Assembly: GCA_902782665.1 (NCBI GenBank)
Contig: CACZOA010000099.1
Location: forward strand, 1 to 55,322
DNA from: an uncultured Bacteroidales bacterium
GTDB lineage: Bacteria > Bacteroidota > Bacteroidia > Bacteroidales > Paludibacteraceae
Direction: 5' to 3'
Length of the DNA: 55,322 nt
This document shows positions 3,272 through 47,167 of the stretch, piece by piece; the stretch's first letter is position 1, and every line of letters starts with the position of its first letter. The notes beneath the pieces were generated by a model that was not told where the DNA came from, did no database searches, and saw nothing but the letters and a program-made list of their open reading frames with translations. The translations under genes and the position numbers were made by a program.

Positions 3272-3451
3272 ATGAGGATTACAAAGGACAGAACACCATT
3301 GTTCGATCTTCTTTGCGACCCCCTTAGTGTGGATTATGACAAGACAAAAGGCAATCAAACAAACATCACATTCAGCCGTACAGAAAACAGATTCTTAAAA
3401 AAGAGAATTATTATTAAACCTATCAAAGAAAATCAAAATGGCAAATATTAA
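3272..3451 (+). CDS. Possible 59-residue ORF upstream of and overlapping the next gene
   Basis: ATG at 3272 opens a short frame (MRITKDRTPLFDLLCDPL...) that ends with TAA at 3449-3451 and overlaps the start of the following gene by 14 bases. Its composition is plausible for a soluble peptide, but I see no recognisable motif and no promoter. It could equally be chance sequence in an intergenic region. Confidence 0.2.
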   Translation: MRITKDRTPLFDLLCDPLSVDYDKTKGNQTNITFSRTENRFLKKRIIIKPIKENQNGKY

Positions 3452-3836: not shown

Positions 3837-3839
3837 ACA

Positions 3840-3878
3840 AACAATCCGCCGTCAGGCTATACTTGGCGGCGGACTGTT
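3840..3878 (+). terminator. GC-rich hairpin between hypothetical gene and antiporter
   Basis: Arms 3840-3851 and 3867-3878 pair around CCGCCG/CGGCGG, with one A-C mismatch. No T-run follows, so it may be an attenuator or processing site rather than a full terminator. Confidence 0.5.
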
Positions 3879-3912
3879 AATCTCGTCACTTTAATTCTAA
3901 TTTCTGTTAACT

Positions 3913-5367
3913 ATGACTTTAACACCAGAGAACATTGTTTTTATAGGAGCCATACTCGTCTTTGCAAGTATTTTTATCAGCAAATGGGGATATCGATTTG
4001 GCATTCCCACGCTCCTTCTGTTTCTTTTCACAGGCATGCTTTTCGGTGTTGACGGACTAGGATTGGAATTTGACAGTCATGAGAATGCTCAGCTAATCGG
4101 CATGCTCTCTCTCAGTGTCATCTTGTTCTCAGGAGGAATGGACACTAAGTTCCATGATATAAAACCGATATTATCACAGGGGCTTGTGCTTTCCACAATA
4201 GGAGTCATGCTGACGACGGGAATAACAGGACTGTTCATCTATCTGATGTCGGAATGGACAAGTCTTGACATAGGATTATCGTTGCCTCTTTCCCTGTTGC
4301 TGGCAGCCACAGTTTCGTCAACAGATTCAGCATCTGTTTTTAATCTTTTACGTTCGCAACGTATTGGGCTGAAACATAATCTTCGCCCAACACTTGAGTT
4401 GGAGAGTGGATCAAACGACCCGATGGCATATGTTCTCACAATTGCTTTAGTACAGGCAATCATATCTGCAGATCAGTTTTCTGGCTGGGGTCTGGCACTG
4501 GAAATCTTGATCCAACTAGTTGTAGGAGGATTATTGGGTTACATACTCGGACATGCATCGGTTTGGATTGTGAACCATATCAACCTGCCTAATTCATCAC
4601 TCTACTCCGTGTTGGTATTGAGCATGATCTTCATCATATTCACACTTACAGACCAGTTGAAAGGGAATGGGTATCTGGCAGTATACGTGGCAGGACTTGT
4701 TGCAGGGAACAACAGGTTGTTATACAAAAGAGAGATGAACGCATTCATGCAAGGAGTAACATGGCTTTTGCAGATCGTTATGTTTATCACACTTGGTCTA
4801 CTTGTCAATCCGCATGAGATGTGGAGTGTTCTGCCAGTCGCCATTGCAATCGGACTATTTATGATGTTCGTATCACGTCCAGCGGCAATCTTTCTCTGTC
4901 TTGCCTCATTCAACATACCGGCAAAAGCAAAACTGTTTTTGTCGTGGGTCGGGCTTCGTGGCGCAGTGCCGATAATCTTTGCGACCTATCCTGTGATCGC
5001 GGGAATCGAAAACGCATATTTCCTTTTCAATGTCGTTTTTGTCATCACGCTTTTATCCCTTCTACTACAAGGGACTACTATTACAGCATGTGCTCACTGG
5101 TTGGGATTATCCACCGTCGAACCTAAAGACGGGAATGATTTTGGCATTGAGCTTCCAGAAAAATTAGAGTCGCAACTCTCAGAAATGATAATGACAGATG
5201 AAGATTTCATCAATGGCAATCGTCTCTCTGACATGAAATTTCCAGAAGGTATGCTTGTGATGATGGTGAAAAGAGGCGATAGTTTCATTGTGCCAAACGG
5301 AAAATTGGAACTGAAGGTTGGAGACAAATTGTTGACCATCGCACGTCAGAAAAAAATGGTTTTATGA
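3913..5367 (+). CDS. cvrA: Potassium (or sodium)/proton antiporter, CPA1 family, CvrA/NhaP2 type
   Basis: An inner-membrane antiporter of 484 residues. About 12 hydrophobic segments fill residues 1-395, starting TPENIVFIGAILVFASIF. The motifs SSTDSASVF and LESGSNDPMAYVL lie in the ion-translocating core; the acidic SND of such motifs is typical of CPA1/CPA2 exchangers. The region after residue 400 is soluble and ends in a TrkA_C/RCK_C-like domain (MKFPEGMLVMMVKRG, then GDKLLTIARQ), which in this family can bind regulatory ligands. This combination matches NhaP2/CvrA, which uses the proton gradient to expel K+ or Na+; which ion cannot be read from sequence. It is apparently monocistronic, with a terminator downstream. 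Confidence 0.88.
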   Translation: MTLTPENIVFIGAILVFASIFISKWGYRFGIPTLLLFLFTGMLFGVDGLGLEFDSHENAQLIGMLSLSVILFSGGMDTKFHDIKPILSQGLVLSTIGVMLTTGITGLFIYLMSEWTSLDIGLSLPLSLLLAATVSSTDSASVFNLLRSQRIGLKHNLRPTLELESGSNDPMAYVLTIALVQAIISADQFSGWGLALEILIQLVVGGLLGYILGHASVWIVNHINLPNSSLYSVLVLSMIFIIFTLTDQLKGNGYLAVYVAGLVAGNNRLLYKREMNAFMQGVTWLLQIVMFITLGLLVNPHEMWSVLPVAIAIGLFMMFVSRPAAIFLCLASFNIPAKAKLFLSWVGLRGAVPIIFATYPVIAGIENAYFLFNVVFVITLLSLLLQGTTITACAHWLGLSTVEPKDGNDFGIELPEKLESQLSEMIMTDEDFINGNRLSDMKFPEGMLVMMVKRGDSFIVPNGKLELKVGDKLLTIARQKKMVL

Positions 5368-5710: not shown

Positions 5711-7279
5711 ATGAAAAAACATTTACTATCAGCAATCGGAATTTTTGCGGCATGCACAATGTCAGCGGCGCAATATATGCACATCAACCTGCCAAACGGC
5801 AAGGAGTATGATGTGAAAGTAGAGAAAACGGATCGTGTGAGCCACGTGAAAGAAGGCGACGAAGTTTTCATCAAAGTTTCCCGTACAGACAGTTCCTACT
5901 CTCTTTATCCTTTGGATGGAGCAGAAGTGACATTCGATGAAGAGATATCTCGTATGGATGGAGATGTCGCCAACTGGAACATTGTGTCAACCATGATCGA
6001 AGGTTGTGAATATGACACAGCCAGAATCCGAGAATTAAAGGAGACAGGTTATAATGAAAGGGAATTATACCAAATACTGATAGATTATGAAAGATGTGTC
6101 AGTGAAAAGAAAAAAGAAAAAAAAGTAGAATTTTCTGACAGAGAGATCGAGGCACAAAGTTCTGCAAACAAATTTGCAACAAGACTCTTTACAGATATTT
6201 CAAAAGAGAGTAAATACCAAGACAAAAACTTGATTTTCTCTCCTACCAGTTTGCAGTTTGCATTAGCCATGTTGGCAAATGGAGCCGATGATGACGAAGC
6301 ATACGCAGAGATCACAACAGCATTAGGGAAAGAGAACATGCCACTCGACGAGTTGAACGACATGTACTCAAAGCGTTTGACAAATCTAAAACTGGTAGAC
6401 CCTCAAAAAGTCAATATTGGAATAACCAATGCGGCATTCATTCAGAATGGGCTTCCTATTGGAAAAAACTTCTTGCAAAACATTGAGGAATACTATAAAG
6501 CAGTCGCAAACAATGTAGACTTCAATGAAGACTCTACCTATACAAAAATGAACGATTGGGCAGACAAGTCTACTAATGGAATGATAAAAAAATTAGGTAT
6601 AGACAAAGACCCATCATTAATTCTAGTGTTAGCAAATGCACTGAGTTTCCAGTCGGAATGGGAAGAAAAATTCGTTCCTCAATTAACACAGCCAGGCAAA
6701 TTCATCACATCAACAGGAGAAGAGAAGCAAGTGGATAAGATGAGTAGAACCTATACTGGTTGTTATGCAGAAGGAGAAAACTATCAACTCGTCACCATTC
6801 CTTTTTACGAGGATTTCCAAATGAATGTGATTCTACCAGCAGAAGGAGTTTCTCCTGAAGTTGCTCTTGCAGAAGTTGATTTCGACAATATAAAATACAA
6901 TTATGTATCAACGTATGATAATGGAATGCACCTCTACTACTCCTATCATCTTTTATTGCCGAAATTTAATATCGACACAAAGATTAAGCTGAATGAATCT
7001 TTGAAAGAAATCGGACTAGAGAAAACATTCCTCGCAAATTTCAGCAACATTGCAGATGTTGCGAAAGTAGAAAATGTAAGACAACTTGCACATTTGGAAA
7101 TCGACGAAGACGGTGCGAAAGGTGCTGCTGTGACAGTAATAGATCTATTGGGAAGTCCTTATCTAGAAGAGAAACTTGTAGAAGTTGACGTCAACCGTCC
7201 GTTTATCGTGACAATCAACAACCCTAAGACTCACGAGATGCTCTTCATTGGATTAATCAACGATCCAACACTGAATTGA
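5711..7279 (+). CDS. Secreted serpin, copy 1
   Basis: A 522-residue protein with an N-terminal signal (MKKHLLSAIGIFAAC). FAAC at 12-15 could act as a lipobox; otherwise cleavage would fall near SAAQ. Residues 21-76 form a small beta-type domain (HINLPNGKEYDV). Residues 90-140 form a helical segment with Cys99 and Cys129. A full serpin domain runs from about 150 to 520, with FSPTSLQFALAMLANGA, NALSFQSEWEEKF and the C-terminal block NRPFIVTINNP. The hinge EIDEDGAKGAA (463-473) has small residues at P15-P9, as in inhibitory serpins. Counting from Gly468 as P15 puts P1 near Ser482 (LLGS/PYLE). The protein likely inhibits an extracellular serine or cysteine protease; the target is unknown. It heads the three-serpin array. 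Confidence 0.92.
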   Translation: MKKHLLSAIGIFAACTMSAAQYMHINLPNGKEYDVKVEKTDRVSHVKEGDEVFIKVSRTDSSYSLYPLDGAEVTFDEEISRMDGDVANWNIVSTMIEGCEYDTARIRELKETGYNERELYQILIDYERCVSEKKKEKKVEFSDREIEAQSSANKFATRLFTDISKESKYQDKNLIFSPTSLQFALAMLANGADDDEAYAEITTALGKENMPLDELNDMYSKRLTNLKLVDPQKVNIGITNAAFIQNGLPIGKNFLQNIEEYYKAVANNVDFNEDSTYTKMNDWADKSTNGMIKKLGIDKDPSLILVLANALSFQSEWEEKFVPQLTQPGKFITSTGEEKQVDKMSRTYTGCYAEGENYQLVTIPFYEDFQMNVILPAEGVSPEVALAEVDFDNIKYNYVSTYDNGMHLYYSYHLLLPKFNIDTKIKLNESLKEIGLEKTFLANFSNIADVAKVENVRQLAHLEIDEDGAKGAAVTVIDLLGSPYLEEKLVEVDVNRPFIVTINNPKTHEMLFIGLINDPTLN

Positions 7280-7382
7280 CAACAGAATATTTCAAATAAA
7301 ATTCAGTCTTCAATATTGCAGACAGAGGATTTCAAATCGAAATGCAACTTGTAATTTATGTAAACAAAATAAAATCTAAAAT

Positions 7383-7856
7383 ATGAAAAAGCTATTACGT
7401 TTAGCGGGATTATTGATGGCAATGACCACAACCGCACATGTTTATGCTGAGACGACTCACGTCACAGTTGATTTGACCGACGGAACAAAGATTTCGTACC
7501 TTTTGGCTGAATCTCCCAAAATCACCTATTCAGCCGACAGCTTTATTGTAAGTGGACCAGCCAGAGCCGCTTTCGAATTAAGCACCGTCGATTCATATCA
7601 TTTTACCGACGGAACTGTAAGCGATGCACTTGTTTTAGGAAGCAATGAGGTACGCATCACCTATTCCGACAACAACCACGTCAAAGCAGAGGGTTTGAAA
7701 CCAAACTCATCAGTGGTTCTTTATTCTGTAGCTGGATCAGCCATTCAGAAAGTGAGTGCATCAGCTGAAGGTGTGGCAGAAATAAAATTGCCACAAGCCA
7801 AAGGAGTCTACATCCTAAAAACAGACTCACAAACCGTCAAACTTATAAAAGAATAA
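7383..7856 (+). CDS. Small secreted beta-domain protein with T9SS-like tail, copy 1
   Basis: 157 residues with a clear signal peptide (MKKLLRLAGLLMAM, cleavage after VYA). Residues 25-80 form a domain with the pattern THVTVDLTDGTKISYLL, also common at the start of secreted Bacteroidetes proteins. The last 75 or so residues (VVLYSVAGSAIQKV, KGVYILKTDSQTVKLIKE) look like a T9SS type A sorting domain. The mature protein is therefore almost only a beta-domain plus a sorting tail, suggesting a surface-anchored or secreted accessory. It lies 103 bases after serpin 1 and 4 bases before serpin 2, so it should be translated with the serpins. No catalytic motif is seen. Confidence 0.75.
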   Translation: MKKLLRLAGLLMAMTTTAHVYAETTHVTVDLTDGTKISYLLAESPKITYSADSFIVSGPARAAFELSTVDSYHFTDGTVSDALVLGSNEVRITYSDNNHVKAEGLKPNSSVVLYSVAGSAIQKVSASAEGVAEIKLPQAKGVYILKTDSQTVKLIKE

Positions 7857-7860
7857 GATT

Positions 7861-9423
7861 ATGAAGAAACATTTACTATCAACAATCGGATTGTTTGCAG
7901 CATGCACAATGTCCGCGACACAATATATGCACATCAATTTGCCTGATGGCAAAGAGTATGATGTGAAAGTAGAGAAGACTGATCGTGTGAGCCATGTGAA
8001 AGATGGCGAAGAAGTTTTCATCAAAGTTTCCCGTACAGACAGTTCCTATTCTCTTTATCCTTTGAATGGAGCAGAAGTGACATTCGATGAAAAGATCGCA
8101 CGCATGGATGGCGATGTCGCCAACTGGGACATTGTATCTACTATGGTAGAAGGTTGTGAATACGACTCCGCCCGAATTCGTGAATTAAAAGAGTCTGGGG
8201 CTGACGATTGGGAGATATTCAAAATACAAGAAAGTTATAGCGATTGTGTCAAAGAAAAGAGAAATGAGAAAAAAATAAACTTCTCTGACAAAGAGATTGA
8301 GACACAAAGTTCCGCAAACAAATTCGCGACAAAACTCTTTACCAACATTTCTAAAGATAAAGACTTTAAAGACAAAAACTTGATCTTCTCGCCTACCAGT
8401 TTGCAGTTTGCCTTAGCCATGTTGGCAAATGGAGCCGATGATGACGAAGCATACGCAGAAATCACAACCGCTTTAGGAAAAGAAAACATACCACTCGACG
8501 AGTTGAACGACATGTATTCAAAACGTTTGACTAATCTTAAAATGGTAAATCCTCAAAAAGTCAATATTGGAATAACAAATGCGGCTTTCATCCAAAAAGG
8601 GCTTCCTATTGGAAAAAACTTCTTGCAAAACATTGAGGGATACTACAAAGCAGCAGCCAACAACGTAGACTTCAATGAAGACTCCACATATACAAAAATG
8701 GACAATTGGGCAGAAAAGTCTACAAATGAAATGATAAAAAAATTAGGCATTGACAAAGATCCATCATTAATTCTTGTATTAGCCAATGCCCTAAGTTTCC
8801 AGTCGGAATGGGAAGAAAAATTTGACACAATGAGAACAGAGATTGGCAAATTCACCACATCGACAGGAGAAGTGAAGCAAGTAGAGAAGATGAATCATTA
8901 CTTTGTTGGCAATTATGCAGAAGGAGAAAACTACCAACTCGTCACTTTGCCATTTTACGAGGGATTCCAGATGAATGTGGTTCTACCAGCAGAAGGTGTT
9001 TCTCCAGAAGCAGTTCTTGCAGAAATCGATTTTGATAACATAAAACACAAAACCGAAGATGCGGGATCCTTCTACATTCTTTACAGCCCAAGACTTTCAT
9101 TGCCGAAATTCAACATAGACTCAAAGATTAAGTTAAATGAAATGTTGAAGAAAATCGGATTAGAAAAGACATTCATCGCTAAATTCAACAACATTGTAGA
9201 AAATGCGGAGGTGACTAATGTAAAACAATTGGCACATTTGGAAATCGATGAAGACGGTGCGAAAGGTGCGGCTATAACATTAGTGGAACTATCTGGAAGC
9301 GCATATATGGATGAGGTTGTCGATGTTGATGTCAACCGTCCGTTCATCGTGACAATCAACAATCCTAAGACTCACGAGATGCTCTTCATCGGATTGATCA
9401 ACGACCCAACTCTGAATAAATAA
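7861..9423 (+). CDS. Secreted serpin, copy 2
   Basis: 520 residues, near-identical to copy 1 through the signal peptide, N-terminal beta-domain and most of the serpin fold; FSPTSLQFALAMLANGADDD is shared exactly. The helical linker with the paired cysteines (GCEYDSA..., DCVKEK) is present but diverged. The hinge EIDEDGAKGAA is unchanged, whereas the loop after it differs (ITLVELSGSAYMDE). The predicted P1-P1' is Ser-Ala instead of Ser-Pro, which implies a different protease preference. Start is ATG 7861, 4 bases after the partner gene. The protein should be secreted or a lipoprotein, as for copy 1. Confidence 0.92.
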   Translation: MKKHLLSTIGLFAACTMSATQYMHINLPDGKEYDVKVEKTDRVSHVKDGEEVFIKVSRTDSSYSLYPLNGAEVTFDEKIARMDGDVANWDIVSTMVEGCEYDSARIRELKESGADDWEIFKIQESYSDCVKEKRNEKKINFSDKEIETQSSANKFATKLFTNISKDKDFKDKNLIFSPTSLQFALAMLANGADDDEAYAEITTALGKENIPLDELNDMYSKRLTNLKMVNPQKVNIGITNAAFIQKGLPIGKNFLQNIEGYYKAAANNVDFNEDSTYTKMDNWAEKSTNEMIKKLGIDKDPSLILVLANALSFQSEWEEKFDTMRTEIGKFTTSTGEVKQVEKMNHYFVGNYAEGENYQLVTLPFYEGFQMNVVLPAEGVSPEAVLAEIDFDNIKHKTEDAGSFYILYSPRLSLPKFNIDSKIKLNEMLKKIGLEKTFIAKFNNIVENAEVTNVKQLAHLEIDEDGAKGAAITLVELSGSAYMDEVVDVDVNRPFIVTINNPKTHEMLFIGLINDPTLNK

Positions 9424-9438
9424 CAGAATATTTCAAAA

Positions 9439-9470
9439 AAATCCCGTCTACAATATTGCAGACGGGATTT
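9439..9470 (+). terminator. Hairpin in the spacer after serpin 2
   Basis: A perfect 11-bp stem (AAATCCCGTCT at 9439-9449 with 9460-9470) with a 10-base loop. Only TTT follows, so read-through to the partner gene is likely. A degraded version lies at about 7300-7335 and a full version after serpin 3. Confidence 0.7.
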
Positions 9471-9521
9471 CCAGAATGAAATACAATTCATAAATCAAGC
9501 AAAACATATATACTCTATAAT

Positions 9522-9995
9522 ATGAAAAACCTATTACATTTATTTGGAGGATTGATAGCAATGGCATCAATAGCTCCTGTGTTCGCTGAGACGACTCACG
9601 TCACAATTGATTTGACCGACGGAACAAAGTTTTCGTACCTTTTGGCTGAATTACCCAAAATCACCTATTCTACCGACAGTTTGATTGTGAGCGGACCAGC
9701 CAGAGCTGCATTCGGATTAAACACCGTCGATTCATATTATTTCACCGACGGTACTGTAAGCGATGCTCTTGTTTTAGGAAGCAATGAAGTGCGCATCACC
9801 TATTCCGACGACAGCCACGTCAAAGCAGAGGGATTGCAACCATATTCTTCAGTGATTCTTTATTCTGTAGCAGGTTCAGCCATTCAGAAAGTGAATGCAT
9901 CAGCTGAAGGTGTGGCAGAACTGGGATTGCCACAATCCAAAGGAGTCTACATTCTAAAGACAGACTCACAAACCGTCAAACTTATAAAAGAATAA
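9522..9995 (+). CDS. Small secreted beta-domain protein with T9SS-like tail, copy 2
   Basis: 157 residues, the same length as the copy at 7383. The signal peptide is rewritten (MKNLLHLFGGLIAMAS, cleavage after VFA), while the beta-domain and sorting-like tail are highly conserved (THVTIDLTDGTKFSYLL, YSVAGSAIQKV, KGVYILKTDSQTVKLIKE). The gene sits between serpins 2 and 3, 4 bases ahead of the latter. The fixed pairing and tight spacing suggest that it works with the serpins, for example as a surface docking partner; this is inference. Function otherwise unknown. Confidence 0.75.
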   Translation: MKNLLHLFGGLIAMASIAPVFAETTHVTIDLTDGTKFSYLLAELPKITYSTDSLIVSGPARAAFGLNTVDSYYFTDGTVSDALVLGSNEVRITYSDDSHVKAEGLQPYSSVILYSVAGSAIQKVNASAEGVAELGLPQSKGVYILKTDSQTVKLIKE

Positions 9996-9999
9996 GATT

Positions 10000-11580
10000 A
10001 TGAAGAAACATTTACTATCAGCACTCGGATTGTTTGCGGCATGCACAATGTACGCCACACAATATATGCACATCAATCTGCCTGATGGCAAGGAGTATGA
10101 TGTGAAAGTAGAGAAGACAGATCGTGTTAGCCATGTGAAAAATGGCGACGAAGTTCTCATCAAAGTTTCCCGTACAGACAGTTCCTATTCTCTTTATCCT
10201 TTGAAGGGAGCAGAAGTGACATTCGACGAAGAGATAGCACGTATGGATGGTGATGTTGCCAACTGGGACATCAAAACGGCAATGGAAACCGGCTGCATCT
10301 ACGACACATCAATTGTACAAAATTTGAGAGAAAGAGGTGCAAGCGAATGGGAAATAAAAGAGGCTATATACCATGCACAAAAAGAATATAGCAATTGTGT
10401 ATATAAAGCCAAAGACAAACTAAATCTAACGATCAATGGAAATGAGGTTGACGCAATCCGTTCTGCCAACAAAATTGCGACAGACCTATTCTGGGAAATC
10501 TCCAAAGACGAAGAGCACAAAGACAAGAATCTGATTTTCTCGCCAACAAGTCTACAGTTCGCGCTAGCAATGTTGGTGAACGGAGCAGACGACGACAGTG
10601 CTTACGCAGAGATCACAAAAATGTTAGGCCAGCAAGACATGCCACTCGACTTTCTGAACAACATGTACGAAAAGCGTATGAACACTTTGATATCTGAGAA
10701 TCCAATGGAAGTTGAAATCGGAGTGGCAAACGCCGCATTCCTACAGAATGGCATTCCATTCGGCAAAAACTATTTGCAGAACATTGAAGATTACTATAAA
10801 GCGGCAGCCAACAACGTTGATTTCGCTCTTGACACAACATATAAATTAATGGATAAATGGGCGGAAGAAACAACAAACGGAATGATCCCTTCAATGCAAA
10901 TCACTAAAAATCCTGCTCTATGGATAGTATTGGCGAATGCATTGAGTTTCCAGGCTGAATGGGCTGATAAATTTGATCATGCGTATACCAAATCCGACAC
11001 ATTCACCACAGTGACAGGAGAGAAAAAAACAGTTGAGATGATGAGAAACTACTACGAAGGATGCTATGCGGAAGGAGCCAACTATCAGTTAGTCACGCTT
11101 AACTTCCACGCAGGATACGTCATGAACGTCATCCTTCCAAACGAAGGTGTTTCTCCGGAAAAGGCACTTGCAGAAATTGATCTTGACAGCATCCACTACA
11201 AACGTGGACGTACAGAAATGGGTCCGGACACAATCTACTGTCCTTCACTTTCTCTGCCAAAATTCAATCTAAACGATAAGATTGAATTGAACAAGAGTCT
11301 GAAAAAAATTGGATTGGAAAAAACATTCTCTAAAACTTTCAACAATATTGCGGATGGAGCATCTGTCTCTAATGTCAAACAGCTTACACATCTGGAAATT
11401 GACGAAGACGGTGCAAAAGGTGCTGCGATAACAACCATTACATTGGAAGGATCAGCAATGCAAGAATATAAGCATGTCAATGTTGATGTCAACCGTCCGT
11501 TTGTCGTAACAATCAACAATCCATACCATCACGAAGTATTGTTCATTGGCTTGATCAACGACCCTTCGCCAGAAAAATAA
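10000..11580 (+). CDS. Secreted serpin, copy 3 (most diverged)
   Basis: 526 residues with the same organisation: signal (MKKHLLSALGLFAAC), beta-domain, helical segment with two cysteines (GCIYD..., YSNCVYK) that is a few residues longer, then the serpin fold (FSPTSLQFALAMLVNGADDD, NALSFQAEWADKF). The hinge EIDEDGAKGAA is kept. The loop reads ITTITLEGSAMQEY, giving P1-P1' near Ser-Ala with Glu at P3 and Met at P2'. More substitutions separate it from copies 1 and 2 than separate those from each other, so the array probably grew by duplicating unit 1/2 later. A good terminator follows and no partner gene comes after. Confidence 0.92.
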   Translation: MKKHLLSALGLFAACTMYATQYMHINLPDGKEYDVKVEKTDRVSHVKNGDEVLIKVSRTDSSYSLYPLKGAEVTFDEEIARMDGDVANWDIKTAMETGCIYDTSIVQNLRERGASEWEIKEAIYHAQKEYSNCVYKAKDKLNLTINGNEVDAIRSANKIATDLFWEISKDEEHKDKNLIFSPTSLQFALAMLVNGADDDSAYAEITKMLGQQDMPLDFLNNMYEKRMNTLISENPMEVEIGVANAAFLQNGIPFGKNYLQNIEDYYKAAANNVDFALDTTYKLMDKWAEETTNGMIPSMQITKNPALWIVLANALSFQAEWADKFDHAYTKSDTFTTVTGEKKTVEMMRNYYEGCYAEGANYQLVTLNFHAGYVMNVILPNEGVSPEKALAEIDLDSIHYKRGRTEMGPDTIYCPSLSLPKFNLNDKIELNKSLKKIGLEKTFSKTFNNIADGASVSNVKQLTHLEIDEDGAKGAAITTITLEGSAMQEYKHVNVDVNRPFVVTINNPYHHEVLFIGLINDPSPEK

Positions 11581-37522: not shown

Positions 37523-38815
37523 TTACAATCTTCCATCTACATCTTCTCTGTTCCAAATTCCTTTTACGTCATAAACGACACTATCTGGACTTTTTTTCAA
37601 ATTGGAGACGGAGATGTTCTTGAACTCTTCATGTGCCACTGCTAACACAATAGCGTCGAATTTTTCTGATGAGATCTCTTTTATAAGCGAAATGCCATAT
37701 TCAGACTTCACTTTGTCAACATTCGCATAAGGATCACAAACCGTTATGTTTGAAGTGTATTCTCTTAAAGTATGGTAGATGTCTGCCACCTTCGTGTTAC
37801 GTATATCCGGACAATTCTCCTTGAATGTGAATCCTAAAATAAGTACCGACGCATCCTTCACCAATACGCCTTTCTTATTCATACATTTAACAACCTGATT
37901 GGCGACATAGTCACCCATACCATCATTTAGTTTTCTCGCATCGTACATAACACGAGGCATCACTCCATACACCTGAGCTTTCTGAATCAGATAATATGGA
38001 TCGACACTTATGCAGTGTCCGCCTACAAGTCCTGGATTCAATTTAATGAAATTCCATTTGGTAGACGCTGCGTCTATCACATCATGAGTATCTATCCCCA
38101 TCGCATTACATATCTTCGCCAATTCGTTGAAAAAAGCGATGTTGACATCTCTCTGAGTGTTTTCTATTATTTTGGAAGCCTCAGCTACCTTTATGCTCGG
38201 AGCTTTATGTGTACCATTTATCAGCACCGTATTATATATCCCGTCTACTATATCAGCGACCTGTTCTGTTGAACCAGAAGTCACCTTGATAATTGTTTCG
38301 ACGGTATGCTTCCTATCTCCCGGATTGATTCTTTCAGGTGAATAACCAGCAAAGAAATCTATATTGTATTTCAATCCACTCTCCTCCTCCACAATAGGAA
38401 TGCATTCTTCCTCTGTCATACCGGGATAGACGGTAGACTCATACACCACTATGTCGTCTTTCCCTATAACACGACCAACCACTCGACTAGCATCCTGTAA
38501 TGGTTTTAAATCAGGCCGATTATTCTCATCTATTGGCGTTGGAACTGCAACGATGTAGAAATTGCAACCAACTATATCTCTTTCTTCTGTAGTGCAACGG
38601 AAACCATGTTTTATGATTGCGTCTTTGAGAAGGTTTCTGTCAACCTCTTTTGTCGAATCCTCACAATTCATAATTGCATCTACCCTTCTCTTATCGACAT
38701 CAAATCCAATTGTCTCAAATTTTGTCGAGAAAAGACGTGCAAGAGGCAAACCAACATAACCTAGTCCAATGACACAAATTTTATATTGAGTTGTGAGTTT
38801 CAAAACAACAGACAT
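37523..38815 (-). CDS. UDP-N-acetylhexosamine 6-dehydrogenase (WbpO/TviB/CapL type)
   Basis: 430 residues. The N-terminal NAD motif is CVIGLGYVGLPLA (14-26). FFAGYSPERINPGD and the catalytic Cys268 in NPGLVGGHCISVDPYYL are diagnostic. FTFKENCPDIRNTK lies in the UDP-binding C-terminal domain. It oxidises C6 of UDP-GlcNAc, UDP-GalNAc or UDP-ManNAc twice to the uronic acid. It is the first gene of the long minus-strand operon, behind a consensus promoter and a 140-base leader shared with the pse operon. With wlbA/wlbB-like genes in the window it could feed a diacetamido-uronic acid pathway. Confidence 0.9.
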   Translation of the reverse strand: MSVVLKLTTQYKICVIGLGYVGLPLARLFSTKFETIGFDVDKRRVDAIMNCEDSTKEVDRNLLKDAIIKHGFRCTTEERDIVGCNFYIVAVPTPIDENNRPDLKPLQDASRVVGRVIGKDDIVVYESTVYPGMTEEECIPIVEEESGLKYNIDFFAGYSPERINPGDRKHTVETIIKVTSGSTEQVADIVDGIYNTVLINGTHKAPSIKVAEASKIIENTQRDVNIAFFNELAKICNAMGIDTHDVIDAASTKWNFIKLNPGLVGGHCISVDPYYLIQKAQVYGVMPRVMYDARKLNDGMGDYVANQVVKCMNKKGVLVKDASVLILGFTFKENCPDIRNTKVADIYHTLREYTSNITVCDPYANVDKVKSEYGISLIKEISSEKFDAIVLAVAHEEFKNISVSNLKKSPDSVVYDVKGIWNREDVDGRL

Positions 38816-38822
38816 TATAGAT

Positions 38823-39007
38823 TATTTTAGATACATAGCCCTAGTACTCAAAACTTTATAAAAATAATGAGTTAACAATATGGCACAAAAAAACCGAAAA
38901 TATACACTTAGTTTTTTTTCAAAAAAGAAAATTTGCCTAATAAATTTGTAAATACCTTACAAAGGTAATTAAAAAACCCGTTTGAGACAAACCAAATGCG
39001 AAAAAAT
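38823..39007 (-). repeat. Promoter-leader repeat, copy A
   Basis: About 185 bases resembling 44792-44982. Shared parts at near-equal distance are TATTTTAGATRCATA, the CTAG-ACTCAAAA block, ACAAAGGTAAT, and AAATGC-AAAAAATG. Lies in front of the UDP-sugar dehydrogenase gene. Confidence 0.75.
38960..38990 (-). promoter_or_regulatory. Promoter of the main polysaccharide operon
   Basis: Minus strand: TTG (38990-38988), 20-base spacer, TACCTTTG (38967-38960). It would give an untranslated leader of about 138 bases. Confidence 0.85.
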
Positions 39008-39080: not shown

Positions 39081-39116
39081 AAAAGACTGGACTCCCAAAC
39101 GGGTATCCAGTCTTTT
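39081..39116 (-). terminator. Terminator of the pse operon
   Basis: An 11-bp stem (39081-39091 with 39106-39116) extended by CCC/GGG above a 2-base mismatch, T-rich downstream on the minus strand. Confidence 0.85.
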
Positions 39117-39213: not shown

Positions 39214-40224
39214 TCAACCAACATTTTCCAAAGAGAGTCTATCTCCTTTCTTCATATTTTTAGTCACCTTTTTACCTAGGATATCATTCAGATATTTTGG
39301 ATGTAATCCAAAGCCTGGTCTTACCGATCGAACATTCTTTTCTGTTATCACATCTCCACACATCATATCTTCAGCGATATAAAGAGATCGAGAGAACTGA
39401 CGTCCTTTTATTAGAGATGGATCTGTATGATAAGAGACATCACCTATTGCTTTTTCAACATTACGTATACTTTTCACCATTGAGCTGAATTCATCAACTG
39501 TCATTGAAAACGCCGCATCTGGGCCTCCAATATTCCTATCTAGAATAAAATGTTTTTCTACCAGTTCCGCGCCAAGTGCGACTGCCGCTATAGCAACATC
39601 GGCACCCATTGTATGGTCAGAAAGGCCGATCTTAACTCCAAAACGATCTTTCATATCGAGCATTGTCCGAAGATTGACACTTTCGAGTGGCGCCGGATAT
39701 GCAGACACGCAATGAAGAAGTGTCACATCATTATTTCCAGCTTCTTTACAGGTGTTGATTGCTAATTCTATGTCTTCAATTGTCGCAATACCAGTTGAAA
39801 TAACCATAGGTTTTCCTTTGCTCGCAGCATATCGAATCAGATTAACATCAGTTATTTCAAAACTAGCGATCTTCATAATTGGATTGCCAAGACTATTGAG
39901 AAAATCAACCGCAGTGTTGTCAAAAGGAGTAGAAAAGCACATCAGGCCACATTTTTTTGCTTCATCAAATATTGCCTGATGCCATTCCCATGGAGTATAA
40001 GCCTCTTTGTATAAATCATACAACTTCGTATTATCCCAAAGAGTACCACCACCTACGACAAAATCATCTCTGTCACAGTCTAACGTAATTGTGTCAGCTG
40101 TATATGTTTGTATTTTTACCGCATCTACACCAGTCTCTGCAATTGCACGAACTGATTCTAACGCGGTCTCCAATTTATGTCCATGATTTGCTGATAGTTC
40201 AGCGACAATGAATGTTTTGCCCAT
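39214..40224 (-). CDS. pseI: Pseudaminic acid synthase
   Basis: 336 residues. It condenses 2,4-diacetamido-2,4,6-trideoxy-L-altrose with PEP to give pseudaminic acid. The TIM-barrel NeuB-type domain begins FIVAELSANHGH. GTLWDNTKLYDLYKEAYTPWEW and IASFEITDVNLIRYAASKGKP match PseI rather than NeuB or LegI. LSDHTMG and EKHFILDRN-GGPDAAFS line the active site. A SAF (antifreeze-like) domain closes the protein from about 275. Its ATG shares one base with the stop of the gene upstream. It is the last gene in the pse operon. Confidence 0.92.
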   Translation of the reverse strand: MGKTFIVAELSANHGHKLETALESVRAIAETGVDAVKIQTYTADTITLDCDRDDFVVGGGTLWDNTKLYDLYKEAYTPWEWHQAIFDEAKKCGLMCFSTPFDNTAVDFLNSLGNPIMKIASFEITDVNLIRYAASKGKPMVISTGIATIEDIELAINTCKEAGNNDVTLLHCVSAYPAPLESVNLRTMLDMKDRFGVKIGLSDHTMGADVAIAAVALGAELVEKHFILDRNIGGPDAAFSMTVDEFSSMVKSIRNVEKAIGDVSYHTDPSLIKGRQFSRSLYIAEDMMCGDVITEKNVRSVRPGFGLHPKYLNDILGKKVTKNMKKGDRLSLENVG

Positions 40225-41630
40225 TATATATATCGTTCTAAGTAATAATACTTATCATCTTCATTATAGACATTGTAACCAACCTTCAAATGATACTGAT
40301 AAGAAGCAGGATTGGTTTTCAGGACTTCTGCAAGCAATCTACGAACTCCTCTAACTTTAATGTAATTGTCCATCAAAGATTCTATAATCTTTCCATAACC
40401 CTTCTTATGGAAAATCGGATTTATATATAATCCATGTTCAGCGGATACCCCATCTTTGATATCAATAAAATCATAAGACCCAACTAGCTCATCATTCAGA
40501 AATATAGCATAATAGAGTTTCGTCTTGTTATTCACAAGAGATTTGACGAAAGACAAATGCGACTCAAAAGGGAATGGATCTGGTTGCGTCATGCATTTGC
40601 GTATTTCAGGAAGATTGCGAACCTCCCATACCCTACGACTTTCATCAAGAGTCATATCTATATAGTTGACTACACGAAGATCAAGTGCCTTAAACGCATA
40701 TATAAGATTACGACTTGCATCATGTATATTCATTTTATTTATTGGATCTATAGGGTAAGATAGACATTTATTAAAATCAGCTTCCATAAGATCACCCAAA
40801 GGAGTGATAAGTTTATTATTGGAAAGACCTTCATAAAATCCTACCTGATTGTCAACATAATAGCCAGCAAAAACATGACAGCCACATGCTAAAGCCTCGT
40901 AACAAACGGAACTAGCCGAACAAAGAACATACTCTGAACTTTTATACTGGGCGGCCATTTCATCCGCTGAAAGTGACGATAGAACTGTCACATTTCTATA
41001 TTCAGACAAAACATTCTTGTAATGATAAAGGTCTCCTACAATTGCGGTTATTTGACTCACATCAGAACGTAAAGAAAGAGCTTTCACCGCTTTTTCTGTA
41101 AAATTGTGTGGATCCGAGCCGCCAAAACAAATCACCCATTTCCCTACAGACCTCGGGACATTGGAAGTCGGAGACAAAAATGGTTTACGTAAAAGAGCAT
41201 AAGAAGGTCCTAAACAAAATCTCGTGAAAGGTTCCGCATCATAAAGATCCGGCGTTGCATTTCCATGATTTATTATAAGATCAGCATAGAAATGACGATC
41301 GTGAACATCATCGATATGTACTAACTTACACCCTTTATCCTTTATCTGCTTCTGATATTCAGAAGAAAAAAAGTAATTATCGAGAACAACAATTTCTTCT
41401 CCCGTGATATATTCAAGAAACTCATCAAATTTTTTTTCATCTGACGGCAAAATCACAACAGGACACACTTTTTCTGCCTCTCTCTGTTGATAAGTGCTAG
41501 GTGACTGAGTGAACAAAATACACTCAAAATCATCTTTAAGCATGTCAGCAAGTGCAAGAGTACGTATAAAATGGCCGTAGCCGATAGATGGGCCTGCATC
41601 TGCACGGAAGAAGATTTTACGTTTCGACAT
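40224..41630 (-). CDS. pseG: PseG-PseH fusion: UDP-sugar hydrolase plus N-acetyltransferase
   Basis: 468 residues in two parts. Residues 1-325 are PseG, which releases UDP from UDP-2,4-diacetamido-trideoxy-altrose: FFRADAGPSIGYGHFIRTLALA with likely catalytic His20, VVLDNYFF, CLGPSYALLRKPFL and FGGSDPHNFT. Residues 330-468 form a GNAT acetyltransferase like PseH (RRVWEVRNLPEIRKCM, HGLYINPIFHKKGYGKIIESLM, NPASYQYHLKVGYN), which acetylates the 4-amino group just before the PseG step. Fusing the two consecutive steps is sensible and occurs in some bacteria. It overlaps by a single base with pseF upstream and pseI downstream. Confidence 0.9.
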   Translation of the reverse strand: MSKRKIFFRADAGPSIGYGHFIRTLALADMLKDDFECILFTQSPSTYQQREAEKVCPVVILPSDEKKFDEFLEYITGEEIVVLDNYFFSSEYQKQIKDKGCKLVHIDDVHDRHFYADLIINHGNATPDLYDAEPFTRFCLGPSYALLRKPFLSPTSNVPRSVGKWVICFGGSDPHNFTEKAVKALSLRSDVSQITAIVGDLYHYKNVLSEYRNVTVLSSLSADEMAAQYKSSEYVLCSASSVCYEALACGCHVFAGYYVDNQVGFYEGLSNNKLITPLGDLMEADFNKCLSYPIDPINKMNIHDASRNLIYAFKALDLRVVNYIDMTLDESRRVWEVRNLPEIRKCMTQPDPFPFESHLSFVKSLVNNKTKLYYAIFLNDELVGSYDFIDIKDGVSAEHGLYINPIFHKKGYGKIIESLMDNYIKVRGVRRLLAEVLKTNPASYQYHLKVGYNVYNEDDKYYYLERYI

Positions 41631-42313
41631 TATCCCTTTGTGAGTTTAAATTTCATTTCTGCTAATTGCCAATCCGTCAATGTGTCAAGATCCTGTACCT
41701 CAAGTTCAGAAAGGACAATGCCAGCCGTATTTGATCCCCATAGACTATTCGTTTTTTTGAAATCATCAATCATACAAATATAAAATTGACCTGCATCATG
41801 ATATGTCTTTTCTAAATCCTGAGATCGTGATTTCAAATACTGAGGCTGAAGCATCGATATCTTACCGTCTACTATATGAAGTGCTCGCTGAATAGGATAA
41901 GAGTACTCGACACACGTAAAAACTGAGTATATATCATTTTTTATCAAAGAATATGCCTCCTTAAGCCGATCAGCACTGACAAAAGGAGCCGTACTATAAA
42001 GACATGTAAATGAATCAAACGTCTTTCCAGCCTTAGAATAACAGTCAAGAACCTCATTTATAACATCGGCTGTTGTAGCATAATCATTGGCGGTAGCCTC
42101 ACTACGTAGAAAAGGAACACTAGCTCCATATTGCTTGGCAATAGTTGCTATCTCTTCATCATCTGTAGAAACCATCACCTCTTCATACATACCAGATTTG
42201 AGAGCTGCCTCAATTGAATATGCGATGATTGGTTTGCCAAGGAAATCTTTGATGTTTTTGCGAGGAATACGCTTAGAACCACCCCTTGCTGGTATAATAC
42301 ATAAGTTTTTCAT
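41630..42313 (-). CDS. pseF: CMP-pseudaminic acid cytidylyltransferase
   Basis: 227 residues. It activates pseudaminic acid with CTP. IIPARGGSKRIPRKNIKDFLGKP is the nucleotide-binding motif of CMP-sugar synthetases, MVSTDDEEIATIAKQYGA follows, and FTCVEYSYPIQRAL with the HDAGQFY block are typical of PseF/NeuA. The neighbouring PseI-type synthase, rather than NeuB, makes PseF the better name. It sits between pseC and the pseGH fusion; the intergenic distance to pseC is one base. Confidence 0.9.
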   Translation of the reverse strand: MKNLCIIPARGGSKRIPRKNIKDFLGKPIIAYSIEAALKSGMYEEVMVSTDDEEIATIAKQYGASVPFLRSEATANDYATTADVINEVLDCYSKAGKTFDSFTCLYSTAPFVSADRLKEAYSLIKNDIYSVFTCVEYSYPIQRALHIVDGKISMLQPQYLKSRSQDLEKTYHDAGQFYICMIDDFKKTNSLWGSNTAGIVLSELEVQDLDTLTDWQLAEMKFKLTKG

Positions 42314-42314
42314 C

Positions 42315-43478
42315 TTATTTGCATATATACTCTTTAACCTTACCGATTACATACTCCTGCTGTTCCTCTGTAAGTGTCGGGAACATTGGAAGGGCAAGGC
42401 AATGCTTATAGTACTCTTCAACAACAGGCAGATCACCTTCCTTATTACCGAATTGTTTGTAATAAGGCATAAGATTAAGAGGATAATATAGAACCTGAGC
42501 AAAAATTTTATTCTCTCTAAGGAAATTGTACAATCCAAGACGATCATCTACTTGGATAATGTATAAGTGATATGCATGATAAACATCTTCCGCCTCATAA
42601 GGAGTCTTGATAGCATCAATATCCTTGAACGCTTCATTATATTTACGGACAAGTTCACGGCGAATCTCCACATTTTTTCGTGCAACCTTAAGTTGGCTTA
42701 TGCCAAGTGCCGCCTGAATATCTGTAATACGATAATTATAGCCAAGTTCCTGCATTTCATAATACCAGAGTCCATCCTGACGCTCTAGTTTATCTGCATC
42801 ACGTGTGATTCCATGAGTACGATAAAGAGCCATTTTCTCTTTATACTCGTCATTCTGAGTACAAGCGATACCACCCTCACCTGTTGTGATATGTTTGACC
42901 GGATGAAAAGAGAACACTGTAATATCGGAATACTTTCCACAACCAGCATACACCTTATCTCCTGTAGAATCGACAAAATAAGCGCCAGGTGCATGACAAG
43001 CATCCTCAAGGATCCACATGCCATACTCATCTGCGACTTTGCGATACTCTTCCATGTCATGTGGATAGCCAGCAAAATCAACAAGTACCATACCCTTATA
43101 TGTTCCCTTTGGAGACGCAGCAAGAGTTTCTTTAAGTTTATCTAAATCGAGAAGGTATGTTTTAGGATTAATATCGACAAACTTAACATTTCCGCCACAG
43201 AAACGAATACAATTGGCAGAAGATGCGAATGTCAAAGGTGTACAAATCACATTGTCTCCAGGCTTAACCCCTAGGGCCATTGCTGCAATATGAAGAGCTC
43301 CCGTCGCATTACATACTGCGACAGCATGCTTTGCATTCACATACTCACAAAAGGCATTCTCAAACTCTGCGATCTTGGGGCCACATGTCAAATAATCCGA
43401 CTTTAAAGCCTCAACCACCGCTTGAACATCTTCATCAGAGATAAACTGACGACCGTATGAAATAGGAAGTTTTAACAT
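42315..43478 (-). CDS. pseC: UDP-4-amino-4,6-dideoxy-sugar aminotransferase
   Basis: 387 residues, PLP-dependent, DegT/DnrJ/EryC1 family. The cofactor-binding Lys195 is in FSFHPVKHITTGEGG, and LEDACHAPGA supplies the Asp that pairs with the pyridine nitrogen. Further family blocks are SYGRQFI at the N-terminus and YNYRITDIQAALG. PseC transfers an amino group from glutamate to the 4-keto sugar made by PseB. Gene order directly after pseB supports this over WecE or PerA. Confidence 0.92.
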   Translation of the reverse strand: MLKLPISYGRQFISDEDVQAVVEALKSDYLTCGPKIAEFENAFCEYVNAKHAVAVCNATGALHIAAMALGVKPGDNVICTPLTFASSANCIRFCGGNVKFVDINPKTYLLDLDKLKETLAASPKGTYKGMVLVDFAGYPHDMEEYRKVADEYGMWILEDACHAPGAYFVDSTGDKVYAGCGKYSDITVFSFHPVKHITTGEGGIACTQNDEYKEKMALYRTHGITRDADKLERQDGLWYYEMQELGYNYRITDIQAALGISQLKVARKNVEIRRELVRKYNEAFKDIDAIKTPYEAEDVYHAYHLYIIQVDDRLGLYNFLRENKIFAQVLYYPLNLMPYYKQFGNKEGDLPVVEEYYKHCLALPMFPTLTEEQQEYVIGKVKEYICK

Positions 43479-43500
43479 AACTTAATGACCCTTTCTTTTT

Positions 43501-44523
43501 TTACTTGACCTCGAATTTAGGATCTACACACTCTTTAATCTTCACACGCATTGACTCAGGAGTTTCCCACATTTCGTTAATATCCGATGAATAATGGAAT
43601 CCAAACGGAACTGGCTTTGCGTTATGATGTTTAATAAAGTCTTCTTTCTGCCAACAATAAGAAACTGACGGTAGAATAGCATAATATTTACCGAGGTCTA
43701 TCGTATCAAGAGCATCCGTAACAGTAATCATTTCCTCATGAAGTTTTTCTCCAGGACGAATACCAACCTCAACCTGCTTCATATTAGGTGCAATAGCAGT
43801 AGCCACGTCGCAAATTCTGTAAGAAGGAATCTTTGGAATGAAGATTTCTCCTCCAAGGTGATTTTTGAGAGCAAACATCACAAGCTGCACACCATCCTCA
43901 AGAGATATATTGAAACGAGTCATTCGCATATCTGTTATCGGTAGATATTCAGCACCTTCATCACGTTTTCTTATGAAAAATGGAATAACAGAACCACGAG
44001 ATCCCATAACATTGCCATAACGTACTACAGAGAATCGAACATCACGAGCTCCCTTAATATTGTTGGCGGCTGTGAAAAGTTTATCTGAAGTAAGTTTTGT
44101 TGCTCCATAAAGATTGATAGGAGCACATGCCTTATCTGTAGAGAGAGCTACAATATCATGAACATTATTAGCGATAGCCGCATTAATTACATTTACAGCA
44201 CCGTCAACGTTAGTCTTGATACACTCGCGAGGATTGTATTCTGCAGTATCAACCTGCTTGATTGCTGCCGCATGGATAATAACATCAACGCCAGCACAAA
44301 TCGACATAAGTCGCTCACCATCACGGACATCACCGATAATATAACGAATCTGAGGGAACTGCTTCTCTGGCCAAATCTGCTTCATCTCATACTGCTTCAA
44401 TTCGCCACGAGAAAAGACAATAATCTTTTTTACGTTTGGATAATCACGGAGGATAACCTCTACGAACTTCTTACCAAAACTACCAGAACCACCGGTAATC
44501 AAAACCACTTTGCCGTTTAGCAT
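43501..44523 (-). CDS. pseB: UDP-N-acetylglucosamine 4,6-dehydratase (5-inverting)
   Basis: 340 residues, short-type FlaA1/PseB dehydratase. GGSGSFGKKFVE (11-22) binds NADP. LSTDKACAPINLYGATK holds the catalytic Asp-Lys and Tyr-xxx-Lys, and RYGNVMGSRGSVIPFF and GEKLHEEMIT are family blocks. It starts the pseudaminic acid route by dehydrating UDP-GlcNAc with inversion at C5. It is the first gene of the operon, behind a leader of about 400 bases. Confidence 0.93.
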   Translation of the reverse strand: MLNGKVVLITGGSGSFGKKFVEVILRDYPNVKKIIVFSRGELKQYEMKQIWPEKQFPQIRYIIGDVRDGERLMSICAGVDVIIHAAAIKQVDTAEYNPRECIKTNVDGAVNVINAAIANNVHDIVALSTDKACAPINLYGATKLTSDKLFTAANNIKGARDVRFSVVRYGNVMGSRGSVIPFFIRKRDEGAEYLPITDMRMTRFNISLEDGVQLVMFALKNHLGGEIFIPKIPSYRICDVATAIAPNMKQVEVGIRPGEKLHEEMITVTDALDTIDLGKYYAILPSVSYCWQKEDFIKHHNAKPVPFGFHYSSDINEMWETPESMRVKIKECVDPKFEVK

Positions 44524-44791
44524 AATTGAAAATTTTAAATTATATACAGATTATAATTTTTCTTACTTAAACTTGCTTACAAGGAATATCTCATAAAGAA
44601 TACCCGTAAACACACCCTTCACTCCATTTTGAAATTGGGTTTCGTCGAAAAAGACAAAAAGTCTCTATGGATTTGGTGGCAGAACGTATTCAAAAACCTG
44701 ACATCCCAACTTCTTTCTACCAATGTCTGCATGAAATATTAAGCTACGTAGTCACGATTTTTTGTCAGTTTTTACTAAACAAAACCACAAA

Positions 44792-44982
44792 TATTTTAGA
44801 TGCATATTTCTAGGACTCAAAAAATTACAAAAATTATAAGTCTGCAACATAGCATACCAAAATTTTAAGTGAAAACCATCTTTATCATGCAAAAGAAAAG
44901 AATTTTTGTCTAAGTACCAGACGAAAATTGGTACAAAGGTAATAAAAAAGCCCATTGGGGGCAAAATAAATGCAAAAAAATG
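44792..44982 (-). repeat. Promoter-leader repeat, copy B
   Basis: Related to 38823-39007, with the same promoter spacing and a nearly equal promoter-to-motif distance (141 versus 136 bases). Lies in front of pseB and ends at the start of the divergent NusG-like gene. Confidence 0.75.
44934..44964 (-). promoter_or_regulatory. Promoter of the pse operon
   Basis: Minus strand: TTG (44964-44962), 20-base spacer, TACCTTTG (44941-44934), identical in both elements to the polysaccharide operon promoter. Confidence 0.85.
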
Positions 44983-45015: not shown

Positions 45016-46290
45016 ATGACACAAATTTCAAAGGCACCACATAATTCTGATTTAAATTGGTTCAGAATAAATTTGACAAAAAGAAAAGAATTAGACGCCT
45101 TTAGAAACATAATAATAAACGAGGTAAACGAATTCAACAAAAAAGAGAATGTCGGCTGTGACGAAGACGAAGACAATGATGTTGACTGTACAAACCGTCG
45201 TTACCTATTTCCTTCGAATTCAAGCAACGTCAACGGATACTACGAATCCATCATGAGCAGTATAAAGTTCTCATGTTGGGTAAAATGCACAGAAAAGGAG
45301 CTGTTGGAAATGCTTGACAAGCTAAACGAAAAACAAATTACAGCTGACGCATCACGAAAAAGCAACAGCGGTGTCATCCGTGTGGTTAACGAAAATGACG
45401 TCAACACACTTGGTTGGATCATAAACCACGTTCCACAAAACTTGTTCAGAGCCAACATAATCCCTTCCGAAACCAAACCAGCGACGCTTTCTGTCCCAGG
45501 CGGTGTGATATTGGAAGGTGAACTCAGCAAAATGCGAGGCAACGTGAATACCGACAAATTCTTTTTCTCCGTACTTGGCACCAAACTTTTCATGGTGATA
45601 AACAAAGGTGACGCTGATGAAGCCGTCGATATTTCCCAAGAAATTGAAAACGCAAAAAGAGCCAATGATATTGACAAAGCCAACAATAGCAGACAATGGA
45701 TGGTGCTAAGAGTCTCTCGTGGCACAGAACAAGCACTTGAAAAGAAAATAGATTTCTGGAAAGGGCATAACGAATCCGACATCTATTTCGAGACTTATTT
45801 GCCAACCTACATGAAAGACATCAAAAGATGTGGCAATATCATCGGCCAAAGATGTTCTCTATTCTGTCCAGGATACCTGTTCATCCGCACCTCTATTTCC
45901 GAGCTGCTTCGTCTTGAATCCGATAAATTCTGGGACGGGTCATCCATTTCCAGATTCCTGGTCCGTCAGTCTATGAGGAAAAACAACAACGACAATCAAG
46001 CGCTTAAAATTTCAGACATAGAAATGGCCGACTTCAAGTTTGCAGTCAACTCAAACCTCACCAACATAGCCCTGGAAGCGGATGACTACGTTGACAATGA
46101 ACTTGTGAGATACTATAACCCAAACAGTCCGTTTAACCAAAAAATCGGCAGGGTCTTACATAAAAAGGATAGTCTATTCCTTTCTTTTCTTCCGCTTGGA
46201 GGCATCATGAACTTCACCAAAGCTATAAAAATCGAAAGTTCACAGATACGTAAATTATCAAGCAAAGAACTTGCGGAATTAAAAGCATAA
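45016..46290 (+). CDS. UpxY/NusG-like antiterminator with two NusG-type halves
   Basis: 424 residues from ATG 45016; an in-frame ATG at 44980 would start within the promoter region. The second half (about 216-415) reads as a NusG N-terminal domain (RQWMVLRVSRGTEQALEKKI, YLPTYMKDIKR, LFCPGYLFIRTSISELLRL) followed by a KOW-like stretch (NQKIGRVLHKKDSLFLSFL). The first half repeats this order in diverged form: NWFRINLTKRKELDAF, YLFP, IKFSCWVKCTEKELLEML, then VPGGVILEGELSKMRG. Known UpxY proteins are about 170-190 residues with one unit. They ride on RNA polymerase and prevent early termination in capsule operon leaders. Divergent placement beside the pse promoter supports such a role here. Confidence 0.72.
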   Translation: MTQISKAPHNSDLNWFRINLTKRKELDAFRNIIINEVNEFNKKENVGCDEDEDNDVDCTNRRYLFPSNSSNVNGYYESIMSSIKFSCWVKCTEKELLEMLDKLNEKQITADASRKSNSGVIRVVNENDVNTLGWIINHVPQNLFRANIIPSETKPATLSVPGGVILEGELSKMRGNVNTDKFFFSVLGTKLFMVINKGDADEAVDISQEIENAKRANDIDKANNSRQWMVLRVSRGTEQALEKKIDFWKGHNESDIYFETYLPTYMKDIKRCGNIIGQRCSLFCPGYLFIRTSISELLRLESDKFWDGSSISRFLVRQSMRKNNNDNQALKISDIEMADFKFAVNSNLTNIALEADDYVDNELVRYYNPNSPFNQKIGRVLHKKDSLFLSFLPLGGIMNFTKAIKIESSQIRKLSSKELAELKA

Positions 46291-46414: not shown

Positions 46415-46487
46415 GCGGAAGTAGCTCAGTTGATAGAGCAATAGCCTTCCAAGCTGTGGGTCGCGGGTTTGAGCCCCGTCTTCCGCT
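46415..46487 (+). tRNA. tRNA-Gly (anticodon TCC)
   Basis: A 73-base cloverleaf. Acceptor stem GCGGAAG/CTTCCGC with discriminator T, usual for bacterial tRNA-Gly; D-arm GCTC/GAGC; anticodon stem ATAGC/GCTGT with loop CTTCCAA, giving anticodon TCC; T-arm GCGGG/CCCGT. No encoded CCA. It reads GGA and probably GGG codons. Confidence 0.95.
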
Positions 46488-46491
46488 CTAC

Positions 46492-46530
46492 AAAAGAACC
46501 TCAGACTCTGTTTGAGGTTCTTTTTTGTTT
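46492..46530 (+). terminator. Terminator of tRNA-Gly
   Basis: Perfect 12-bp stem (46492-46503 with 46513-46524) followed by a T-run. The wlbB-like gene starts 35 bases later. Confidence 0.88.
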
Positions 46531-46564
46531 AGAAAAAGGATTTTTATTACTACATTATATAACT

Positions 46565-47167
46565 ATGAACCAGAACTTCTATTACCATGAAACAGCAATC
46601 CTTGACGACGGTTGCAATGTCGGCGAAGGAAGCAAGATATGGCATTTTTCTCACTTGATGGCAGGTTGCACAATCGGAAAAAATTGTAATATCGGCCAGA
46701 ATGTTTACGTCGCAGCCTCAGCTGTACTTGGCGATGGTGTGAAGGTACAAAACAATGTCTCTATCTACGACGGTGTAGTTTGCAAAGACAATGTGTTCAT
46801 AGGGCCATCCGTTGTGTTCACCAACGTCATCAACCCACGTGCTTTCATAAGCAGAAAAGACGAATACAAACAGACTGTCATAGAGGAAGGTGCAAGCATA
46901 GGAGCTAACGCGACAATAGTTTGTGGTAATAAAATTGGCAAATATGCATTTGTCGGTGCCGGCAGTGTTGTGACACACGATGTATTGGATTTCGAATTAG
47001 TCGCAGGCGTTCCAGCCGCCCACGTAGGATGGGTCAGCAAAGAGGGCTTCCGTCTTGAGTTCAATCGTTATGGTATCGCATTTTGCCACGAATCAAAAGA
47101 AACATACACTTTGAAAGGCGGTCAAGTATCTATACTGCAAAAAACAGACAATAATGATAACAAATAA
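46565..47167 (+). CDS. wlbB: UDP-2-acetamido-3-amino-2,3-dideoxy-glucuronate N-acetyltransferase-like
   Basis: 200 residues from ATG 46565; a longer frame runs back into the tRNA and is not used. The left-handed beta-helix is plain (SKIWHFSHLMAGCTIGKNCNIG, VKVQNNVSIYDGVV, GASIGANATIVCG, YAFVGAGSVVTHDV). Motifs HFSH and FTNVINPRAF match WbpD/WlbB, which acetylates the 3-amino group of a UDP-amino-uronic acid. The last 14 bases overlap the next gene, so the two are coupled. Specific substrate is by family inference. Confidence 0.85.
   Translation: MNQNFYYHETAILDDGCNVGEGSKIWHFSHLMAGCTIGKNCNIGQNVYVAASAVLGDGVKVQNNVSIYDGVVCKDNVFIGPSVVFTNVINPRAFISRKDEYKQTVIEEGASIGANATIVCGNKIGKYAFVGAGSVVTHDVLDFELVAGVPAAHVGWVSKEGFRLEFNRYGIAFCHESKETYTLKGGQVSILQKTDNNDNK

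Follow-up and report, generated by a model that had tools for sequence, protein, structure and literature searches.

Does one bacterial protein chain hold two NusG-type units, and what might such a protein do next to a surface-polysaccharide cluster? The question is raised by a gene in a 55,322-nucleotide stretch of DNA (hereafter the window; contig CACZOA010000099.1 of assembly GCA_902782665.1) from an uncultured Bacteroidales bacterium of the Paludibacteraceae. To our knowledge, bacterial NusG paralogues are all single NGN-KOW proteins. A preliminary description of the 424-residue product had proposed two NusG-type units in tandem, and this observation is confirmed, the C-terminal unit being recognised by sequence and the N-terminal unit being likely from predicted fold and profile. 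The gene is intact, with an open frame uninterrupted by stops, and its parts are as follows.

45016..46290, + strand: gene for the two-unit NusG-type protein, 424 amino acids (open frame; full length in seven of the nine genomes of the genus)
45046..45609, + strand: likely N-terminal NusG-type unit, residues about 11–198, divided into NGN-like residues 11–142 and KOW-like residues 150–198 (AlphaFold2 model of residues 1–208, Foldseek, VIA, profile against shuffles)
45610..45690, + strand: linker, residues about 199–225, the least conserved segment of the chain (41% identity in the pair G000–G005)
45691..46269, + strand: C-terminal NusG-type unit, residues about 226–418 (Pfam NusG match over cut-off at 227–315; hhalign)

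Evidence for two NusG-type units in one chain

Judged by its sequence, the C-terminal half is NusG-type. Residues 227–315 score 22.5 bits with Pfam NusG (PF02357) against a cut-off of 22.2, a threshold also exceeded by six orthologues; comparison of the half with 41 UpxY/NusG sequences by hhalign gives P = 1.2e-10, and a PHROG named transcription antiterminator is matched by all seven orthologues. The NCBIfam scores are all far under their cut-offs, at 23.2 bits for UpxY (NF033644; cut-off 100), 21.8 for LoaP (NF033641; cut-off 125) and 12.6 for NusG, although UpxY is still the top match of this half. The earlier assignment to UpxY/NusG is partly supported, in that the protein is not a UpxY by the NCBIfam cut-off.

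The profile searches that had been proposed for the two halves came out positive for the C-terminal one, whereas the N-terminal half gave no family match. When the seven orthologous N-terminal halves were compared with Pfam at E ≤1, no PF02357 match was returned; the best other matches were to Inhibitor_I78 (E 0.052, under the cut-off, in three of the seven), and PHROG 32551, of unknown function, touches the N-terminal half in three of the seven orthologues (best E 0.047). Evidence for its nature comes from predicted structure and from profile comparison. The N-terminal half predicted alone (residues 1–208) yielded a model of moderate confidence, for which the nine top Foldseek matches are all NusG or Spt5, albeit weak (best E 4e-3), and Spt5 entries are among the matches when the model is compared by Foldseek and VIA. 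A profile of the N-terminal half, compared with the same 41 UpxY/NusG sequences, outscores all 300 shuffles. Together, fold and profile make it likely that this half is a second NusG-type unit. The full-length model of the chain has low confidence, and its comparison with the PDB was filled by the C-terminal barrel.

The two halves show no detectable match to one another by hhalign (P 0.37), which makes a recent duplication of one half unlikely. Loss of a PGY motif from the N-terminal half might have pointed to an inability to bind polymerase; this idea was discarded because the motif pattern fits just 11 of the 41 UpxY/NusG sequences. The N-terminal half is strongly constrained: in the pair G000–G005 it is 66% identical, against 57% for the C-terminal half, and the two halves hardly differ in the four pairs of closer species that were compared (83–87% and 82–89%, respectively). 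The ratio of non-synonymous to synonymous substitution rates (dN/dS) of the N-terminal half is 0.059–0.098 in six of seven pairs, with dS not computable in the seventh and saturated (dS >2) in two of the six. These low ratios and the retained identity argue that the N-terminal half is no decaying remnant.

Distribution of the two-unit protein

Among the genomes searched, the two-unit protein is restricted to one genus. The full-length proteins there comprise that of the window, five at 83% identity to it and one at 60%, with G006 and G007 lacking the protein; a separate scan of genome contigs returned five relatives, corresponding to those of G001–G004 and G008. No further full-length relative was found outside the genus in 200 genomes of the family at E ≤1e-3, nor in 358 at E ≤1. 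In the latter search 19 genomes match, seven of them from the genus; the other 12 matches are weak, six being C-terminal-half matches to frames of 185–198 amino acids and the rest short or broken. The window's own protein was the only match in 393 genomes of the order (E ≤1e-3). No relative was found in a scan of 113 viral-contig stretches or in a phage search, a plasmid search matched a single copper gene, weakly (E 0.3), and the best match of a PDB sequence search (E 0.48) is unrelated. The N-terminal half alone matched eight of 395 genomes of the phylum at E ≤0.05, one being the window's own; the five loci opened (L116–L119 and L121, leaving out L120, L122 and L123) were judged by eye to encode other proteins, such as FtsA in L116, and were rejected as relatives.

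It had been asked whether long UpxY homologues are a common class, in which case the tandem build would be unremarkable. There is no sign of such a class: a search of 198 genomes of the order with the UpxY model gave, among the matches listed, six frames of more than 250 amino acids, each holding one NusG unit by eye. Four are single units, three of these behind long upstream frames, and in L074 a shortened unit runs into other sequence. The sixth, at 3323–4585 (− strand) of L075 and from another Bacteroidales family, is a single chain in which a NusG-type unit is followed by a long C-terminal tail unrelated to it. No report of a two-unit NusG appeared among the titles and abstract openings that literature searches listed. 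The parts are NusG-type; their union in one chain would be the new element.

A leader shared by two operons of the divergent cluster

The gene and a surface-polysaccharide cluster are divergent, the cluster running on the − strand from 44523 to about 19641. This arrangement is seen in the window and in G001–G005, while the contig of G008 ends there. Two operons of the cluster concern us here, with the following features.

44934..44941, − strand: promoter-like box TACCTTTG, copy A (read from the sequence; aligned in nine copies)
44790..44841, − strand: 52-base block, copy A, 5′ of the pseudaminic-acid (pse) operon (model R1, 67 bits)
39214..44523, − strand: five genes for PseB, PseC, PseF, PseG (with a PseH-like tail) and PseI (NCBIfam matches over cut-off for all five)
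39081..39116, − strand: terminator-like hairpin 3′ of the pse operon (read from the sequence; missing from the output of the pattern scan, which allows loops of at most 8)
38960..38967, − strand: promoter-like box TACCTTTG, copy B (read from the sequence; aligned with copy A)
38821..38872, − strand: 52-base block, copy B, just 5′ of the dehydrogenase gene (model R1, 73.7 bits)
37523..38815, − strand: nucleotide sugar dehydrogenase, heading the second operon (TIGR03026, 369.7 bits; cut-off 189.8)

Both window copies of the block are among the sequences used to build model R1, and the PseH-like part of the PseG product is under its own NCBIfam cut-off. Behind the dehydrogenase gene the second operon continues with further genes of the cluster. 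Each operon opens with the TACCTTTG box, a promoter-like sequence of the Bacteroidota −7 type, followed by the 52-base block about 90 bases downstream. Across nine copies of the leader, mean pairwise identity is 0.80 in the box region and 0.79 in the block, compared with 0.54 in the intervening leader, 0.50 upstream and 0.32 downstream of the block. The covariance model of the nine copies finds 11 strong copies (59.8–79.2 bits), two of them new, in seven of the nine genus genomes, and one extra weak match in G001 (E 0.19); G006 and G007 lack the block as well as the protein. Under stricter filters the block is found, among 200 genomes of the family, in the seven that bear the protein and in none of the 193 others, a co-occurrence that could be explained by linkage at one shared locus.

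The block also precedes the dehydrogenase gene in G003 (as a second copy) and G008. In G002 and G005 a single copy was found, with the dehydrogenase gene directly behind the leader. By eye, the module behind copy A in G003 and G004 (loci L082 and L083) is a different nonulosonate-like set from the pse genes of the window; the block is kept although this module varies between species of the genus. A decayed dehydrogenase start behind copy A was sought and rejected, since its score is reached by 56 of 300 shuffles in the window and by 190–281 of 300 in G001.

RNAalifold draws a hairpin of 10 pairs in the block. Covariation is no better than in shuffles, 170 of 500 of which do as well, and when six copies were folded singly the window's copy A did not adopt the RNAalifold shape; a hairpin is not supported by covariation, and we therefore take the block as an element without an assigned form. 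Elsewhere in the window, at 5711–11580, three genes of about 520 amino acids, serpin-like by eye, alternate in tandem with two genes of 157 amino acids.

What the two-unit protein may do

We lean, though only somewhat, towards a specialised NusG paralogue that would act as an UpxY- or LoaP-like antitermination or anti-pausing factor for the divergent cluster, with the C-terminal unit on the polymerase and the N-terminal unit serving specificity or control. We infer that the protein binds polymerase, recognises the block and antiterminates, with the two units dividing the labour. Contact with RNA polymerase would fall to the C-terminal unit, whose NusG sequence is still recognisable; its strongly diverged yet strongly constrained N-terminal partner would supply specificity or control, either by reading the leader block common to the operons or by masking the C-terminal unit until the block is reached. 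By analogy with UpxY, LoaP and RfaH, polymerase would then most likely be kept going past early stops in the long sugar cluster, and the leader common to both operons would let a single gene act on the two of them. Known NusG paralogues likewise adjoin polysaccharide clusters (PMC7593976, PMC7819879).

Alternatively, the N-terminal unit might be a built-in inhibitor or decoy that blocks the C-terminal unit or competes with another NusG paralogue of the cell, with an effect like that of UpxZ or the RfaH tail. Both units look NusG-type, autoinhibition of RfaH provides a precedent (PMC6370827), and there are other proteins that would compete for a single polymerase site: a PF02357 search of the genus, with the frames of nine loci, gives a housekeeping NusG, adjoining ribosomal-protein genes in the three loci inspected, and a separate UpxY-like protein of 180–209 amino acids, which precedes a chain-length or export gene in the six loci inspected (neighbours named by eye). 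The separate UpxY of the window's genome has 188 amino acids and scores 112.2 bits with the UpxY model. Nonetheless, we judge this arrangement unlikely, as the N-terminal half is not detectably similar to the C-terminal half, and a built-in UpxZ, which had been suggested, has no sequence support: PF06603 gives no match at E ≤10 in either half, and none was found in the nine genus genomes in a search run without a positive control.

A comparably improbable reading makes the block a second promoter or operator for another factor, with the two-unit protein acting at another place, such as its own strand, via the terminator of a tRNA-Gly into acyltransferase and oxidoreductase genes. The relevant features are these.

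46415..46488, + strand: tRNA-Gly(TCC), a conserved neighbour (ARAGORN, Rfam)
46492..46524, + strand: intrinsic-terminator-like hairpin 3′ of the tRNA (pattern scan, 15 pairs)

The tRNA is present in six of the seven genomes with the protein (the window's own, G001–G004 and G008), and none was found in G005, whose contig ends there. At 46415–46565 the tRNA and the hairpin lie directly 5′ of the acyltransferase gene. The position of this hairpin, with the tRNA before it and the gene at 46565 behind it and with no TAnnTTTG or other promoter box visible by eye between the hairpin and the acyltransferase gene, would suit such a role, as would the TTGAGx-16-TAAAAT of the block, a sigma-70 scan match in both window copies. 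Against it, sigma-70 sites number 32 compared with a shuffle mean of 26.8 (standard deviation 5.1), which is near-equal, and a conserved box is already present upstream in the leader. Least probable of all is that the repeated leader serves chiefly as a recombination seam for exchange of sugar modules with the protein a passenger of the locus, as the variable module behind copy A and the single-copy arrangement of G002 and G005 might suggest, since the protein is under strong constraint and copies A and B within a genome (three genomes) are 0.67–0.83 identical in the block and 0.50–0.53 in the leader middle, so that selection on short parts fits better than fresh exchange.

The preferred reading, a specialised antitermination factor, may be set beside known systems. 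The two-unit protein shares with UpxY of Bacteroides capsule loci its place as a NusG paralogue adjoining a surface-polysaccharide cluster in Bacteroidales and its top NCBIfam match; it differs in having two units rather than one, in its low UpxY score, in being divergent from its presumed targets where UpxY is the first gene of the operon, and in the lack of any UpxZ found with it (in the uncontrolled search above). RfaH is likewise a specialised NusG, dedicated to long operons for surface sugars that carry a short cis element. Unlike the two-unit protein, RfaH is a single unit; it acts through ops. Spt5/DSIF also carries NGN and KOW units in one chain, and the predicted N-terminal model matches Spt5 entries; Spt5 has one NGN, with several KOWs in eukaryotes, whereas the two-unit protein appears to repeat the NGN-KOW pair whole. 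With LoaP of Bacillus the protein would share action on a short element that recurs in the leaders of several operons; the LoaP target is a tested RNA hairpin (PMC12691694 for both points), in contrast to the block, where a hairpin is unsupported, and the LoaP model score is low.

More tentatively, and as a possibility we rate below the general reading, recruitment and polymerase modification may be split between the units, the N-terminal one reading the shared leader block and the C-terminal one riding the polymerase. If true, exchangeable nonulosonate modules would have one gene as their shared switch. NusG/Spt5 is described as the sole transcription factor family that every domain of life possesses (PMC7819879). 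A two-unit form that is conserved would reveal a new route to specificity or control in this family, and the compact locus allows testing of how NusG paralogues locate their few targets.
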